This document shows, in pieces, positions 34,010 through 40,614 of a DNA stretch of 64,000 nt. Source of the stretch: Flavobacteriales bacterium. GTDB lineage: Bacteria; Bacteroidota; Bacteroidia; Flavobacteriales_E; Vicingaceae. A program made the translations under genes and the position numbers. The notes beneath the pieces are model-generated. The model made no database searches. It was given only the letters and a program-made list of their open reading frames with translations, and was not told the origin of the DNA. Numbering within the stretch: position 1 is the stretch's first letter; each line of letters starts with the position of its first letter. Location of the stretch: positions 186,001 to 250,000 of the forward strand of contig JABWCF010000008.1 in the NCBI GenBank assembly GCA_013359255.1. Reading direction: 5' to 3'.

Positions 34010-36130
34010 ATGAAAAATATATCAAAGATTGCATTCTTGTTTTTTCTTTTCATTTGTACAGCATACTCTTATAGCCAAAAGACAATATCTGCCGGCAAAA
34101 CAGGTGCATTAAAAATAGACCGAAGTAAAGCTCCCGCTCCGGGTTCAGCACCAAAAATTCAAATCGGAAACTATGAAACCTTTATGTTAGATAACGGCTT
34201 AAAAGTAATCGTAGTAGAAAATCATAAATTGCCAAAGGTTTCATTTCAGCTAAGTTTAGATATAGATCCTGTTAGGCAAGGCAATGCTGCCGGGTTATTA
34301 AGTGCAACCGGAGAGTTGCTTGCAACCGGAACTACTACCCGAACGAAGGAGCAGATAGATGAAGAAACCGATTTTATAGGAGCCAATTTTTCTACCAACA
34401 GCGAAGGTTTTTTTGCATCGGCTCTTTCTAAGCATACTGAAAAATTACTCGATTTAGTCTCTGATGTAATTTTAAATCCCGCTTTTTCGGCCGAACAATT
34501 AGAAAAAATAAATATGAGAACCCTTTCTGGTTTATCTACAGCAAAAACCGATGCCAGTGCTATGTCAGCCAATGTAGCTAAGGTGTTACGTTACGGAAAA
34601 CAGCATCCTTATGGGGAAATTACTACCGAAGAAACAGTGAAAAATATTACGGTTGAATTATGTAAGGAATACTATAAAAACTATTTTAAACCCAACGCAT
34701 CATACCTTGTAATAGTAGGAGATATCACTCCTTCCGAAGCAAAAAAAATGGTAGAAAAATATTTTGGAAAATGGCCCAAAGGCAGTGTGCCAAAAAATAA
34801 TTACGAAACACCCAATGTGCCTTCTTTAAGCAAGGCGGCATTTGTAAACAAGCCCGGAGCGGTTCAGTCTGTCATTACTATTACTTACCCTGTGGAGTAT
34901 AAAGTTGGTCAGGAAGATTATATTGCAGCCTCCGTTATGAATAGCATTTTAGGTGGAGGGGGTTTTTCGGCTCGTTTGTTTCAGAATATAAGAGAAGATA
35001 AAGGATATACTTACGGAGCATACTCACAATTATCCAACGATCCGGTAATTGGTTATTTCTCTGCTTCTGCCAGTGTGCGTAATGGAGTAACCGATAGTGC
35101 CATTGTAGAATTTTTAAAGGAAATGAAAAGAATGCGAGATGAACCTGTAACCGAAAAGGAATTGCAGTCTACCAAAAATTTTATAACTGGGAGTTTTGCC
35201 AGAGGCTTAGAGCAACCGCAAACGATTGCCCGATTTGCCTTGCAAACAGAAAAATATAAATTACCTAAAGATTATTACGCTACTTATTTAGAAAAACTAA
35301 ATGCATTAACAGTGGGGGATATACAAAGGATAGCACAAAAATATATGAAACCGGATAATGCCTATATCTTGGTAGTGGGTAATAAAGATGAGGTGGCAAC
35401 AAAGCTTAAACCATTCAGTGCTTCTGGTAAGATTGAGTATTTCGATCATTTTGGAAATGCTGTTTCCGATAGTAAACCTTTACCCAAAGAGGTAACCGCA
35501 CAATTTGTAATTGATAATTATATACGCTCTATCGGAGGTTTAAAAGCAATTAATAAAGTAAAAGATATAACAACCAAGTTAGAAGGTTCTGTACAAGGCA
35601 TGGATTTACAAATGACTGTGCAACGTAAACAACCCAACAAATCGCTTACTTCTATCACTGCCGGGGTAATGGTAATTCAAAAACAAGTTTTTGACGGAGC
35701 AAAAGCTTCTGCCAATGGTATGCAGGGAAACAGAGAAATTACGGGCGAAGAATTAGAAGAACTTCGCTTAGAGTCTCAAATGTTCTTAGAAACCAAGTAT
35801 AACACATTAGGGTATAAACTAAATTTAATTTCAATTGAAGAAGTGAATGGTGCCGATGCTTATAAATTGGAAGTTATATCGCCAAAGGGTAATAAAACAT
35901 ACGATTATTTTGATATGAAAACAGGCTTTAAAATAATGAGTGTAAAAACTAAAAATGTGCCGCAAGCCGGAGGCGAAATAACAGTGAATTCATATTTTTC
36001 CGAATATAAAGAGGTTAAAGGCATTAAATTCCCATATCAACTTTCACAAAGTATGGGTAAGCAAGATTTAAAGTGGCAGGTTACATCGATAGAATTAAAT
36101 ACAAAGTTAAAAGACGAAATTTTTAAGTAG
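34010..36130 (+). CDS. M16 family peptidase-like protein, inactive subunit with C-terminal extension
   Basis: 706 residues. Signal peptide, then two M16 halves (about 45-470). Where active enzymes have HxxEH this protein has AGLLSATGELLATGT, so the zinc ligands are lost; the second-half substrate-binding R/Y segment is kept (FSARLFQNIREDKGYTYGAY). About 210 further residues (FVIDNYIRSIGGLKAINKV onward) form a separate domain resembling periplasmic LolA-like lipoprotein-sorting folds. By analogy with known M16 pairs it would bind substrate for the upstream active subunit. The stop codon lies within a terminator hairpin. Confidence 0.88.
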   Translation: MKNISKIAFLFFLFICTAYSYSQKTISAGKTGALKIDRSKAPAPGSAPKIQIGNYETFMLDNGLKVIVVENHKLPKVSFQLSLDIDPVRQGNAAGLLSATGELLATGTTTRTKEQIDEETDFIGANFSTNSEGFFASALSKHTEKLLDLVSDVILNPAFSAEQLEKINMRTLSGLSTAKTDASAMSANVAKVLRYGKQHPYGEITTEETVKNITVELCKEYYKNYFKPNASYLVIVGDITPSEAKKMVEKYFGKWPKGSVPKNNYETPNVPSLSKAAFVNKPGAVQSVITITYPVEYKVGQEDYIAASVMNSILGGGGFSARLFQNIREDKGYTYGAYSQLSNDPVIGYFSASASVRNGVTDSAIVEFLKEMKRMRDEPVTEKELQSTKNFITGSFARGLEQPQTIARFALQTEKYKLPKDYYATYLEKLNALTVGDIQRIAQKYMKPDNAYILVVGNKDEVATKLKPFSASGKIEYFDHFGNAVSDSKPLPKEVTAQFVIDNYIRSIGGLKAINKVKDITTKLEGSVQGMDLQMTVQRKQPNKSLTSITAGVMVIQKQVFDGAKASANGMQGNREITGEELEELRLESQMFLETKYNTLGYKLNLISIEEVNGADAYKLEVISPKGNKTYDYFDMKTGFKIMSVKTKNVPQAGGEITVNSYFSEYKEVKGIKFPYQLSQSMGKQDLKWQVTSIELNTKLKDEIFK

Positions 36131-36155
36131 GTGCCTACTAAGCATCTACTTTTTT
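36125..36155 (+). terminator. Rho-independent terminator of the M16 pair
   Basis: Ten-base-pair stem (left arm 36125-36134, AAGTAGGTGC; right arm 36142-36151, GCATCTACTT; one G-U pair), a 7-base loop and a T run to 36155. It contains the stop codon of the + gene and the stop codon of the convergent - gene. Confidence 0.75.
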
Positions 36156-37630
36156 AATCGTTTTATTTTATTTTCTATTATTTTAATTCTAGGTAGCATA
36201 GCGTCCTGTATACGTTTGGCGTAGCGAATGCTATCTATAATTTCTTTTTGTTTCGCTTCAATTAACTCTTTTTGTTTTACAATTTCTTCGGTTCGTTCTT
36301 TTACCTGAGTTTCTAGTACGGTGTTTTGTTCTTCTAAAATCTTCTTTTTTTCAATTTCCTGCTTTATATTTTCAGCCGAAAGTTTTTCTACATTTTTAAT
36401 TTGTAGTTTCAAGTCTTTATTTACCAAAGAAAAATGATAGGCGAGGTAAACCGACATGGATATAGGAATACTAACCAAAGAAAATAAAACAAGCAAAATA
36501 ATGCTAATGCTTAACCATGTTCCCTCAATATGTAGGGTAGTTGTGTTTGATAAAATGGAAATAATAAAAATAGTAAGCAAAAGAGCTGCAAACACGAATA
36601 ATCCAAAACCCAAAATTTTTGCTCCGCGAATTCTCTTTTTTATGGCTAAATAAATAACTCGTAAACATTCTACTACAGATACCAATATGCAAACAATAAA
36701 AAAAGTTTTTGTAAATTCTGTGCTGAGGTTCAAGATATAGAGTATTCCGTAAAGGGTAAAAAGAAAAACGAGCAACTTAAAACGTTTAGGAAAAAAGTTA
36801 TTGTAGTATATAGAATAAAAGAAAGCATTAAGCGTAATAAAAAACGGAATAAGAAGCATTAATAAATATTCTTTTACAAAAAGAGTAATGGGGGTATAAG
36901 AAATAATCTCTGATAGGATAGAAAGTATTATAATGAGGCCATAAGAGAAAATATGTAAACTGTAGTACAAATTCGTTTTCTGCTCTTTATAAAAGAGAAA
37001 CAGCAACAGATGTATAAAACAAAGAGAAAAAAGAAAACTGCTTAACAGAGCCCCCAGTATTGAAAGCATATTTTGCTCACCCTCAACTATATCTGTTTGA
37101 GAGAAAGATGCCATAATTCCTTTTAAAGGTTGCTTTCTATAACAAGTATATTCATGGTAAAGATTGTTAGAGTACCTGATAGCTAACACATTTGTTTCGG
37201 CTTTTCGGTTGGGCATAATTGTTACTACTTTCTTATCTAAAAAAAAAGGAGTTTCATGGTTTGCGTTTGTGCCAATTCTTCCAAAAGTATAGATACGATT
37301 TCCGTTTAAGTAAATCTCTGAAGCTCCTAATTGAGAAAGGGTAAGATAACAGGGAATGTTCTTTATTAATTTTTCGGAAGAAAATACAAATCTAAACCAA
37401 CCAATTCCCTGGTAGCTAACTGTATCTGTTTTAACGTCTATCCAGCTACTGTCGTTGTAATTTGTTTGTGAATATTCGGGTTGGTCATCGAGGATAAATT
37501 TTGCTTTCGAAAAATCAAGAACCAAAACCGAGTCTTGCGTTACATCAACATGAAAAGCTACTCCTCTTCTTTGTGAGTACGAAATTAAGTAAGAGCAAAC
37601 GAAGAAGAGAATGAGCAGACGTTTTTGCAT
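36146..37630 (-). CDS. 7TM sensor with periplasmic jelly-roll and coiled coil, output domain absent
   Basis: 494 residues. Signal peptide; a periplasmic jelly-roll domain resembling GH2 sugar-binding or 7TMR-DISM extracellular domains (about 30-175; GIGWFRFVFSSEKL, LGASEIYLNGNRIYTFG); about seven membrane helices (about 190-400); then a coiled coil (about 405-470; EEQNTVLETQVKERTEEIV). It ends with IIDSIRYAKRIQDAMLP plus 14 basic residues. In many Bacteroidota proteins that linker leads directly into a SpoIIE/PP2C phosphatase domain, here missing. The stop is 15 bases from the 3' end of the convergent M16 gene, so no room for the domain remains. Truncation, or signalling through a partner, are both possible. 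Confidence 0.75.
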   Translation of the reverse strand: MQKRLLILFFVCSYLISYSQRRGVAFHVDVTQDSVLVLDFSKAKFILDDQPEYSQTNYNDSSWIDVKTDTVSYQGIGWFRFVFSSEKLIKNIPCYLTLSQLGASEIYLNGNRIYTFGRIGTNANHETPFFLDKKVVTIMPNRKAETNVLAIRYSNNLYHEYTCYRKQPLKGIMASFSQTDIVEGEQNMLSILGALLSSFLFSLCFIHLLLFLFYKEQKTNLYYSLHIFSYGLIIILSILSEIISYTPITLFVKEYLLMLLIPFFITLNAFFYSIYYNNFFPKRFKLLVFLFTLYGILYILNLSTEFTKTFFIVCILVSVVECLRVIYLAIKKRIRGAKILGFGLFVFAALLLTIFIISILSNTTTLHIEGTWLSISIILLVLFSLVSIPISMSVYLAYHFSLVNKDLKLQIKNVEKLSAENIKQEIEKKKILEEQNTVLETQVKERTEEIVKQKELIEAKQKEIIDSIRYAKRIQDAMLPRIKIIENKIKRLKK

Positions 37631-37666
37631 TTAATTTTTATTTACGTAAATGTAAACAGAAATCTA

Positions 37667-39184
37667 TTAATGCAGTAACACACCATTTTCATCAGCCTTT
37701 ATCTCTAAAGTATTGAGCAGTTGCAAAGCTTCTTTTATCAGTATGTGCATTTCGATATCCTGAGTTAAAAAAGGAATTTTTTCTCTAACTTTCAAAACAA
37801 AGTCCTCGATATATGCCGAACTTTTTAAAGGTTTTCTGTATCCGAGAGCTTGTGTAGAAACAAGAATTTCTATGGCTAAGAGTTTTTTAAAATTTTCTAA
37901 AATACGAAAAGCTTTGGTTGCGGCATTGGCACCCATACTCACATGGTCTTCTTGCCCGTTTGAAGAATCTATGGAATCAATACTTGCCGGTGTGCATAAT
38001 TGCTTGTTTTGGCTAACAATGGATGCTGCTGTGTATTGAAGAATCATCATACCACTATTTAAGCCCGGGTTAGTGGCAAGAAAGGGAGGCAGGCCTCTTT
38101 GTCCGGATATGAGTTTATATACTCTCCTTTCAGATATACTACCCAGTTCGGCCATGGCGAGGCATAAAAAATCTAATGCAAGAGCAAGGGGCTGACCATG
38201 AAAGTTTCCGCCCGAAATTATTTTTTCTTCATTTGCAAATAAGGTAGGGTTATCGGTAACAGAGTTAATTTCGGTTTCAAAAACTTTTTTTATATACATT
38301 ATGGCATCTTTGCTAGCACCGTGTACTTGCGGTATACAGCGAAAGCTATAGGGGTCCTGAACATGTTCTTTTTGTCGGTTAAAGAGAGCACTTCCGTTTA
38401 GTATTTTCTGAATATTTCTGGAGGTTATAAATTGCCCGTTGTGTGGACGTACTTTGTGTATTAAATCATCAAATGGTTCCGGTCTGGCATCGAATGCTTC
38501 AATAGAAATGCAGGAAATTACATCGGAAAATGCACTTAGTTTATTTAATTGCATTAGGAGGTAGGTGCCGTAAGCACTCATAAACTGTGTGCCATTTAAT
38601 AAGGCTAAGCCTTCTTTTGCTTGAAGTTCTACAGGGTTCCAACCCATGCGTTTGTTTAATTCGCTGCCACTTATTTTTTTATTTTGGTAATATACTTCCC
38701 CTATTCCAATAAGTGGAAGTGAAAGGTGTGCCAAGGGAGCCAAATCGCCCGATGCACCTAACGAACCTTGTTGATATACCAAGGGTGTAATGTCGTTATT
38801 GTAAAAGTCAATCAGGCGTTGTACGGTAGCTAATTGTACTCCAGAATGCCCTTGTGCCAAGCCTTTTATTTTTAAAAATAGCATGAGTTTTACAATTTCT
38901 TTGGGTACCTCTTCTCCGGTTCCGCAGGCATGCGACATGACTAAATTTTTTTGTAAAATAGCCAAATCCGATGCAGGAATACGCGTGTTGCACAAAGCTC
39001 CAAAGCCTGTATTCACTCCGTACACCGATATGTTTTCGTTTAGTTTTTTTTGTAAAAAACGATAACATCTTTCTGTTTTTTCTTTCGCAATTTCCGACAG
39101 TGTGAGGGCGGCATTATTCTCTACCATTTCTGTTAAATCAGAAATCTTTATCCAGTTGTGGTTTATTTCAATTTCTTTTTTCAT
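37667..39184 (-). CDS. hutH: histidine ammonia-lyase (aromatic amino acid lyase family)
   Basis: 505 residues. The MIO cofactor forms from Ala144-Ser145-Gly146 in QQGSLGASGDLAPLAHLSLP; YGVNTGFGALCNTRI, NLVMSHACGTGE and GGNFHGQPLALALD are characteristic, and SNGQEDHVSMGANAATKA matches histidine lyases. It should deaminate histidine to urocanate; tyrosine or phenylalanine lyase activity is a less likely alternative. No other hut genes lie in the window. Its ATG overlaps the hisS stop (ATGA), so it is translated in a unit with the histidyl-tRNA synthetase. Confidence 0.88.
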   Translation of the reverse strand: MKKEIEINHNWIKISDLTEMVENNAALTLSEIAKEKTERCYRFLQKKLNENISVYGVNTGFGALCNTRIPASDLAILQKNLVMSHACGTGEEVPKEIVKLMLFLKIKGLAQGHSGVQLATVQRLIDFYNNDITPLVYQQGSLGASGDLAPLAHLSLPLIGIGEVYYQNKKISGSELNKRMGWNPVELQAKEGLALLNGTQFMSAYGTYLLMQLNKLSAFSDVISCISIEAFDARPEPFDDLIHKVRPHNGQFITSRNIQKILNGSALFNRQKEHVQDPYSFRCIPQVHGASKDAIMYIKKVFETEINSVTDNPTLFANEEKIISGGNFHGQPLALALDFLCLAMAELGSISERRVYKLISGQRGLPPFLATNPGLNSGMMILQYTAASIVSQNKQLCTPASIDSIDSSNGQEDHVSMGANAATKAFRILENFKKLLAIEILVSTQALGYRKPLKSSAYIEDFVLKVREKIPFLTQDIEMHILIKEALQLLNTLEIKADENGVLLH

Positions 39185-40614
39185 ACTGTTGTGAACAGAT
39201 TTATCAATTCGGTTTCGCTAAGGGATTTTTGCTCTCCGGTGTCCATTTTTTTTAAAATGAATGCTTGTTCCTTCATTTCGTCTTCTCCGGCAATAACTAC
39301 ATAGGGGATGTTTTTATCATTAGCGTATTTCATTTGTTTTTTTAGCTTGGCTATATCTGGGTATATTTCGGAGTTAACCCCCTTTTCTCGCAATTTAAAT
39401 ACTGTTGGAAGACAATAGTTGGTTTCATTTTTGCCAAAATTGGTAAATAACACAAGGGTGCTTTCGCTGAGCAGGTTTGCTTTTTCGAAAAGTCCGAGTT
39501 CGTTCATTGCATCGTAAATACGGTCAATGCCAAAAGAGATACCTACGCCTGAAACATTCTTTAATCCAAATATTCCGGTTAAATCATCATAGCGACCTCC
39601 ACCGCAGATGCTTCCTATTTGCACATTTTTAGCTTTTACTTCAATGATAGCCCCTGTGTAGTAGTTTAATCCGCGGGCGAGGGTTATATCAAAATCTACT
39701 TCAGATTGAATGTTGGCAAGATGCTTTAATGTTTCAAAAACATATTCTATTTCTTTTATTCCTTTTTTTCCAATTTCGGACGATTCAAAAAGATTGGAAA
39801 GCAGGCTTATCTTTTCCTGAAAATCTCCTTTAAAATGAAGCAACGGCTTAATGGCCTGAATAGCTTCATCGGAGATTCCTTTACTTTGCATTTCTTCTAT
39901 CACTTTTTCTTGCCCAATTTTATCAAGTTTATCTATAGCTACAGTAATATCGGTTATTTTTTCTGGCTGACCGGCAATTTCTGCAATTCCTCCAAGTATT
40001 TTTCGGTTGTTTATTTTAATGGTAATAGGCATGGAGATTTTAGTAAAAACATCATCTATTAATTTTACCAATTCTACTTCGTTGAGTAATGCATCAGAGC
40101 CAATGATATCGGCATCGCACTGGTAAAATTCGCGGTATCGGCCTTTTTGTGGCCTATCGGCTCGCCATACAGGCTGTATTTGGTATCGTTTAAACGGAAA
40201 GGTAATTTCGTTTTGATGTTGCACAACGTATCTTGCAAAGGGTACGGTTAGATCGTAGCGAAGAGCTTTTTCGCTTATTTCGGAAAGGTGTTTGGTAAAG
40301 TCTACCTTATGATCGAATAAAAACCATTCGTTGGCAAGGCTTTTCTCTTTTGTAATTTCATCAATTTCTTTTTTTGATAAAGAGAATTTTTCGAGATAAT
40401 TGCCACTGTTCAGTATTTTAAAAATGAGGCGGTCGCCTTCTTCTCCATATTTACCCATCAGAGTATCCATATTTTCCATGGCAGGTGTTTCAATAGGAAG
40501 AAATCCGTAAAGTTTAAAAGTGTTTTTGATTATGGTAAAAAGATAATTTCTTCTGCTCATTTCGGTGGGGCCAAAATCTCGAGTACCTTTAGGAGTAGTT
40601 GGTTTGTAACTCAT
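39181..40614 (-). CDS. hisS: histidyl-tRNA synthetase
   Basis: 477 residues, class II aminoacyl-tRNA synthetase. Motif 1 region near KGTRDFGPTEMSRRNYLF, motif 2 around RRYQIQPVWRADRPQKGRYREF (here KRYQIQPVWRADRP), the histidine-specific LARGLNYYTGAIIEV and GGGRYDDLTGIF, and motif 3 SGVGISFGIDRIY. The C-terminal anticodon-binding domain is present. It overlaps hutH by four bases. The 237-base region upstream is shared with the divergent SBBP gene. Confidence 0.95.
   Translation of the reverse strand: MSYKPTTPKGTRDFGPTEMSRRNYLFTIIKNTFKLYGFLPIETPAMENMDTLMGKYGEEGDRLIFKILNSGNYLEKFSLSKKEIDEITKEKSLANEWFLFDHKVDFTKHLSEISEKALRYDLTVPFARYVVQHQNEITFPFKRYQIQPVWRADRPQKGRYREFYQCDADIIGSDALLNEVELVKLIDDVFTKISMPITIKINNRKILGGIAEIAGQPEKITDITVAIDKLDKIGQEKVIEEMQSKGISDEAIQAIKPLLHFKGDFQEKISLLSNLFESSEIGKKGIKEIEYVFETLKHLANIQSEVDFDITLARGLNYYTGAIIEVKAKNVQIGSICGGGRYDDLTGIFGLKNVSGVGISFGIDRIYDAMNELGLFEKANLLSESTLVLFTNFGKNETNYCLPTVFKLREKGVNSEIYPDIAKLKKQMKYANDKNIPYVVIAGEDEMKEQAFILKKMDTGEQKSLSETELINLFTTV

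Follow-up and report, generated by a model that had tools for sequence, protein, structure and literature searches.

A seven-transmembrane sensor without an output domain as the probable sensor subunit of a split SpoIIE-type phosphatase in Bacteroidia

A gene encoding a seven-transmembrane (7TM) sensor was found in the window (the whole 64,000-nucleotide stretch of DNA that was analysed), and its product is fairly likely to be the sensing component of a split SpoIIE-type phosphatase whose partner acts in trans. For the class of short sensors as a whole, the split-partner reading is strongly supported by genetics and is held with more confidence than for the window gene. We incline slightly towards a split architecture spread across the Bacteroidia, in which arrays of TPR and 7TM sensors carry one standard docking helix and use a single soluble SpoIIE protein per genome, and which the window 7TM sensor joined by losing its own phosphatase.

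Architecture and genomic context of the sensor

The first-pass annotation had described a membrane sensor that lacks a SpoIIE domain and ends where this domain should begin, a description confirmed by the open reading frame, a Pfam search and an AlphaFold model. The following features were assigned:

36146..37630 (-), 7TM sensor open reading frame, 494 aa, without output domain
37571..37630 (-), signal peptide, about residues 1-20 (sequence and AlphaFold helix 2-16)
37100..37504 (-), extracytoplasmic beta-sandwich, residues 43-177 (AlphaFold, Foldseek)
36431..37081 (-), seven TM helices, residues 184 to about 400 (AlphaFold; weak PF07695 match)
36197..36430 (-), signalling helix/coiled coil, about residues 401-478, continuous with TM7 (AlphaFold)
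36191..36235 (-), SpoIIE-type linker DSIRYAKRIQDAMLP, residues 466-480 (DSIxYA[KR]RIQ motif)
36149..36190 (-), terminal 14-residue basic helix RIKIIENKIKRLKK, at the expected SpoIIE start (model, comparison with the sister species G001)
37667..39184 (-), aromatic amino acid lyase (PF00221), 36 bp upstream of the sensor (Pfam)
34010..36130 (+), convergent M16 peptidase (Pfam; conserved in G001)

The translated C-terminus reads ...KQKEIIDSIRYAKRIQDAMLP-RIKIIENKIKRLKK followed by the stop, with SIRYAKRIQDAMLP plus RIKIIENKIKRLKK as the last residues, and 7 of the 14 tail residues are basic. The Pfam search returned only 7TMR-DISM_7TM (PF07695) at residues 193-385, with 19.4 bits against a cut-off of 29, and detected neither SpoIIE/PP2C nor any other output domain in the chain. 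In the AlphaFold model (mean pLDDT 83, pTM 0.70), one unbroken helix (372-478) extends from TM7 through the coiled coil, breaks at LP and is followed by a separate short helix (482-493). Foldseek matched the beta-sandwich to the periplasmic domain of RetS (3jyb, E 0.003) and to GH2 sugar-binding jelly rolls. Homologues retain the signalling helix whether their output is SpoIIE, a cyclase or a kinase. Two further statements of the annotation held: the linker normally precedes SpoIIE, with about 28 SpoIIE domains encoded in the window genome (G000), most of them after this linker, and no SpoIIE remnant is present, the 15 bases (36131-36145) between the sensor stop and the M16 stop (36130) leaving no space for one.

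In the upstream region, genes for HisRS and the aromatic amino acid lyase form a tight cluster with the sensor gene (36146-40614, minus strand), an arrangement that is conserved in the sister species and that likely represents an operon. The lyase-sensor order is likewise retained in G001, and these two genes are probably co-transcribed. A tie between the sensor and the use of histidine or aromatic amino acids is possible.

A class of sensors ending just past the linker

Three TPR-TM proteins of the window genome (one encoded on contig C33, two on C24) also end just past the linker, and search profiles were built from these short proteins. The first short-form profile (A2) gave one match outside its own genome in the phylum sample at 1e-12, located in a 1060-aa frame, A2 being too narrow there; a broader profile (A3) gave many matches in the class. 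A set of 157 non-redundant Bacteroidia C-termini was obtained that stop 16-28 residues after RIQ (median 20, s.d. 1.9), a set that does not measure abundance, the profiles having been trained on short forms and favouring this tail; the stop codon played no part in the search. In a second sample, 26 proteins stop at 18-24 residues after RIQ, 9 continue beyond 230, and no intermediate lengths occur. Chance placement of the stop was rejected on the basis of the length distribution.

Short sensors are mostly TPR-TM proteins encoded in tandem arrays, and they match only generic TPR models. DSIxYA[KR]RIQ is near-invariant across the 157 short C-termini and is also present in cis SpoIIE sensors, and the class C-terminal pattern is xxEKYIxRxLxxLKK followed directly by the stop. 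As far as the literature was searched, the short sensors form a large, previously undescribed group in the Bacteroidota: among the papers covered, mostly those outside subscription, none joined 7TMR-DISM with SpoIIE or with Bacteroidetes and none combined SpoIIE, Bacteroidetes and tetratricopeptide, and the passages covered of a PP2C classification paper (PMC12088040) contain nothing on a split of sensor and phosphatase.

At two loci (L151:1118-7378, 2086 aa; L162:2576-5479, 967 aa), several TPR-short-sensor units follow each other head to tail within one frame, with a new signal-peptide-like stretch after each linker; these are either real fusions or assembly errors.

A stand-alone SpoIIE subfamily

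In genome G045, a 239-aa SpoIIE gene without a linker sits mid-array among short sensors. Nine such linker-free genes were found in the loci examined; their products align over the full length with invariant PP2C motifs and score 382-442 bits in left-one-out searches, compared to at most 366 for any linked SpoIIE domain. The first residue of this subfamily (about 240 aa) corresponds to the point at which short sensors end, and the split is complementary, with the sensors ending in ...YIxRxLxxLKK and a stop and the stand-alone proteins opening with MET..KNFFILYKPKDIVSGDFY. In a tree, the stand-alone proteins form one clade (support 0.98) comprising 45 stand-alone members and one fused member. 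Catalytic motifs are found in all 45 stand-alone proteins. The copy of the window genome (G000:C14:48730-49434; 426 bits, 241 aa) is under constraint (dN/dS 0.06) and has all PP2C metal-binding motifs, and its model (pLDDT 74) begins at the first strand of the phosphatase fold, with the SiaA PP2C domain (6k4e) as the best match.

The fused member is a 695-aa TPR-linker-SpoIIE protein (L246, in G649:C66), whose phosphatase domain is nested among those of the stand-alone clade, at the end of a long branch. It is possibly a re-fusion, in which case it would directly support the pairing of sensor and phosphatase.

Co-occurrence and adjacency

The co-occurrence search covered 80 genome handles, 47 of them chosen for short sensors and 33 serving as SpoIIE-rich controls, with genomes giving weak A3 matches kept outside the set. 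No short-profile match at 1e-14 was present in 31 of the 33 controls, and the matches in the remaining two (G042, G024) were taken as linked SpoIIE sensors (weaker scores, long open frames). A stand-alone SpoIIE protein was matched in 47/47 chosen handles and 0/33 controls. After removal of G793, which has no confirmed short sensor, and merging of G650 and G789, which are one genome entered twice, the clean count was 45/45 distinct genomes with confirmed short sensors vs 0/33 controls. A single gene of stand-alone length (232-277 aa; the copy in G781 is cut by the contig end) is present in each of the 45. The naive Fisher probability for the 47/33 comparison (about 3e-23) is not a fair test, the genomes being related and the co-occurrence not phylogenetically independent throughout; the contrast holds within two genera (G042 vs G043-G045; G571 vs G453, G490, G520 and G546). 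SpoIIE domains of any kind occur in 34/34 metagenome-assembled genomes examined and in 307/395 class genomes, so that the presence of SpoIIE in general is uninformative. The stand-alone enzyme is missing from the SpoIIE-rich controls and present in every genome with confirmed short sensors; what the class tracks is therefore the stand-alone clade. Since all 45 of these genomes carry one separate phosphatase gene, many sensors probably share one enzyme.

A short-sensor gene lies on the same strand within 100 bp at 21 of 46 stand-alone SpoIIE loci, far above chance if an expectation of about 1-3% is assumed. Among the 19 junctions examined, the phosphatase start codon is located 4-36 bp past the sensor stop in 17; for the other two the distances are 57 and 88 bp.

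Candidate partner of the window sensor

The window sensor ends 19 residues after RIQ, within the class range. Its tail has a spacing like that of the class pattern but a leave-out score of 4.5-6.9 bits vs a 5th percentile of 17.6-21.5 for the short class, a value that falls among those of cis SpoIIE linkers and that most short sensors exceed. Neither in the window genome nor in G001 is the stand-alone SpoIIE gene beside any short sensor, and in the window genome it is on a different contig from the window sensor. Because of the atypical tail and the lack of adjacency to the phosphatase gene, class membership of the window gene is less certain. Scoring like a cis linker, the tail could belong to a sensor that pairs with another SpoIIE protein, and judged by its sequence the window sensor may be an independent truncation.

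A specific, rather unlikely form of this idea is that the SpoIIE domain of the window protein disappeared in the g1 ancestor and that the linker now pairs with full-length SpoIIE sensors and not with the stand-alone enzyme, making the protein a decoy or regulator. It would be in line with the indistinguishability of the window tail from a cis linker, with the many cis sensors with similar linkers (about 28) in the same genome, and with the finding that C-terminally truncated RsbU heterodimerises with full-length RsbU (PMC12143880), but it sits badly with a short class that follows the stand-alone enzyme and not SpoIIE generally.

Less probable still is an unrelated partner that recognises the linker or tail helix, or a role of the short sensor as a mere ligand-binding membrane protein. 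Such a role would fit the 25 of 46 stand-alone loci that have no directly adjacent short sensor and the window itself, within which no partner genetically linked to the sensor was found; against it argue the occurrence of one stand-alone SpoIIE gene in each genome with short sensors, the adjacency of this gene to them, and the near-invariance of exactly the SpoIIE-type linker motif.

The first-pass annotation had proposed, as one option, a stand-alone sensor that binds a partner in order to signal. At the class level this proposal is favoured by the co-occurring, often adjacent stand-alone SpoIIE gene; physical binding between sensor and phosphatase is inferred. The linker on the sensor and the linker-free phosphatase together make up the usual single-chain protein, and the simplest reading is recruitment in trans, the sensor helix recruiting and activating a shared enzyme. 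In this mechanism, the beta-sandwich/7TM module would sense an external ligand and shift the conformation of the continuous helix, and the exposed helix end (DSIRYAKRIQ...LP plus the terminal helix) would engage the separate SpoIIE subunit. The candidate partner in the window genome is its single stand-alone SpoIIE protein, and the three short TPR-TM proteins would be further sensors acting on the same enzyme.

Comparison with known systems

The window sensor resembles 7TMR-DISM receptors (RetS; PF07695) in its extracytoplasmic beta-sandwich, its continuous helix and, going by the AlphaFold model, probably its seven TM helices, and its homologues, like members of that group, swap outputs (SpoIIE, class III cyclase, histidine kinase). 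It differs in that the chain has no output domain and that its PF07695 score is below the cut-off.

In SpoIIE/RsbU/SiaA PPM (PP2C) phosphatases, too, a coiled-coil linker leads straight into the phosphatase; the linker segment shows a weak match to positions 383-431 of the SiaA model NF038263, and the modelled stand-alone enzyme resembles the SiaA PP2C fold. In contrast to these proteins, one gene here encodes the sensor with its linker and another the catalytic domain, and a single enzyme would serve many sensors. In RsbU, an ordered coiled-coil linker dimerises and activates the phosphatase, and the partner protein RsbT activates RsbU through this linker (PMC12143880). The proposed system is similar in that a partner acting via the linker would activate the phosphatase, but the linker of RsbU is located on the phosphatase, whereas in the proposed system it is part of the membrane sensor and absent from the phosphatase.

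Many kinases acting on one regulator are known from two-component systems. The wiring proposed here is comparable in that separate sensor genes would feed into one common cytoplasmic protein, but phosphotransfer domains are absent and coupling would occur by contact of a helix with the phosphatase.

If sensor and phosphatase are separable, one enzyme could integrate many inputs, and the short sensors would gain a testable function. In that case, a PPM phosphatase would be under the control of a linker helix acting in trans from another protein, a point relevant to the model of activation by coiled-coil linkers. Bacteroidia carry dozens of SpoIIE sensors, whose wiring is addressed by this proposal.

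Constraint and origin of the window gene

The orthologue in G001 has 494 aa, is 89% identical, shows no frame damage and has an identical tail; as the first-pass annotation had suggested checking, the short form recurs there with the same neighbours in the same order. The dN/dS ratio between the two genes is 0.154. Residues 449-494 differ by 6 synonymous and 2 non-synonymous changes, and the last 14 residues by 3 synonymous and 0 non-synonymous changes, which are small numbers. The recent truncation considered in the annotation was rejected on the basis of the same form in the sister species and the dN/dS ratio.

That a SpoIIE domain was once attached is supported by a 36%-identical protein from G045 (sister genus g16), which continues into SpoIIE and is the only other relative from the same order at E<=1e-20 (46 genomes). 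In the class sample (395 genomes), members of the family mostly carry SpoIIE, and others a class III cyclase or histidine kinase, the latter two assigned by sequence motifs only. The short form of this 7TM family occurs in that sample only in g1 and in a distant genome of another family (G557), whose protein has a canonical short tail. The possibility that all orthologues end at this point, also raised in the annotation, thus holds for both g1 species and fails for the more distant relatives with their SpoIIE, cyclase or kinase outputs.

G713, with a SpoIIE gene broken inside the domain, illustrates how a truncation appears in sequence. Given the short form in both g1 species, the SpoIIE-bearing relatives elsewhere and this contrast with G713, loss of the domain probably predates the separation of the two g1 species, and the short protein has been retained since. 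A functionless relic of recent truncation, for which the SpoIIE-bearing relative in G045 and the broken gene in G713 could be cited, is very improbable and already largely refuted by the second species with its identical tail, the low dN/dS ratio and the undamaged frame.

In the broken gene (G713:C19, L200:7393-9564, minus strand), which encodes a 7TM sensor, SpoIIE is interrupted right after DFYWFTQY and the remainder forms a separate open frame, reflecting either a genuine recent break or an assembly error. Two SpoIIE sensor genes of the window genome also look broken, one by a frame shift (G000:C31:10200-11590, L249:1201-2591) and one by an internal TAG (G000:C16:236111-236926).
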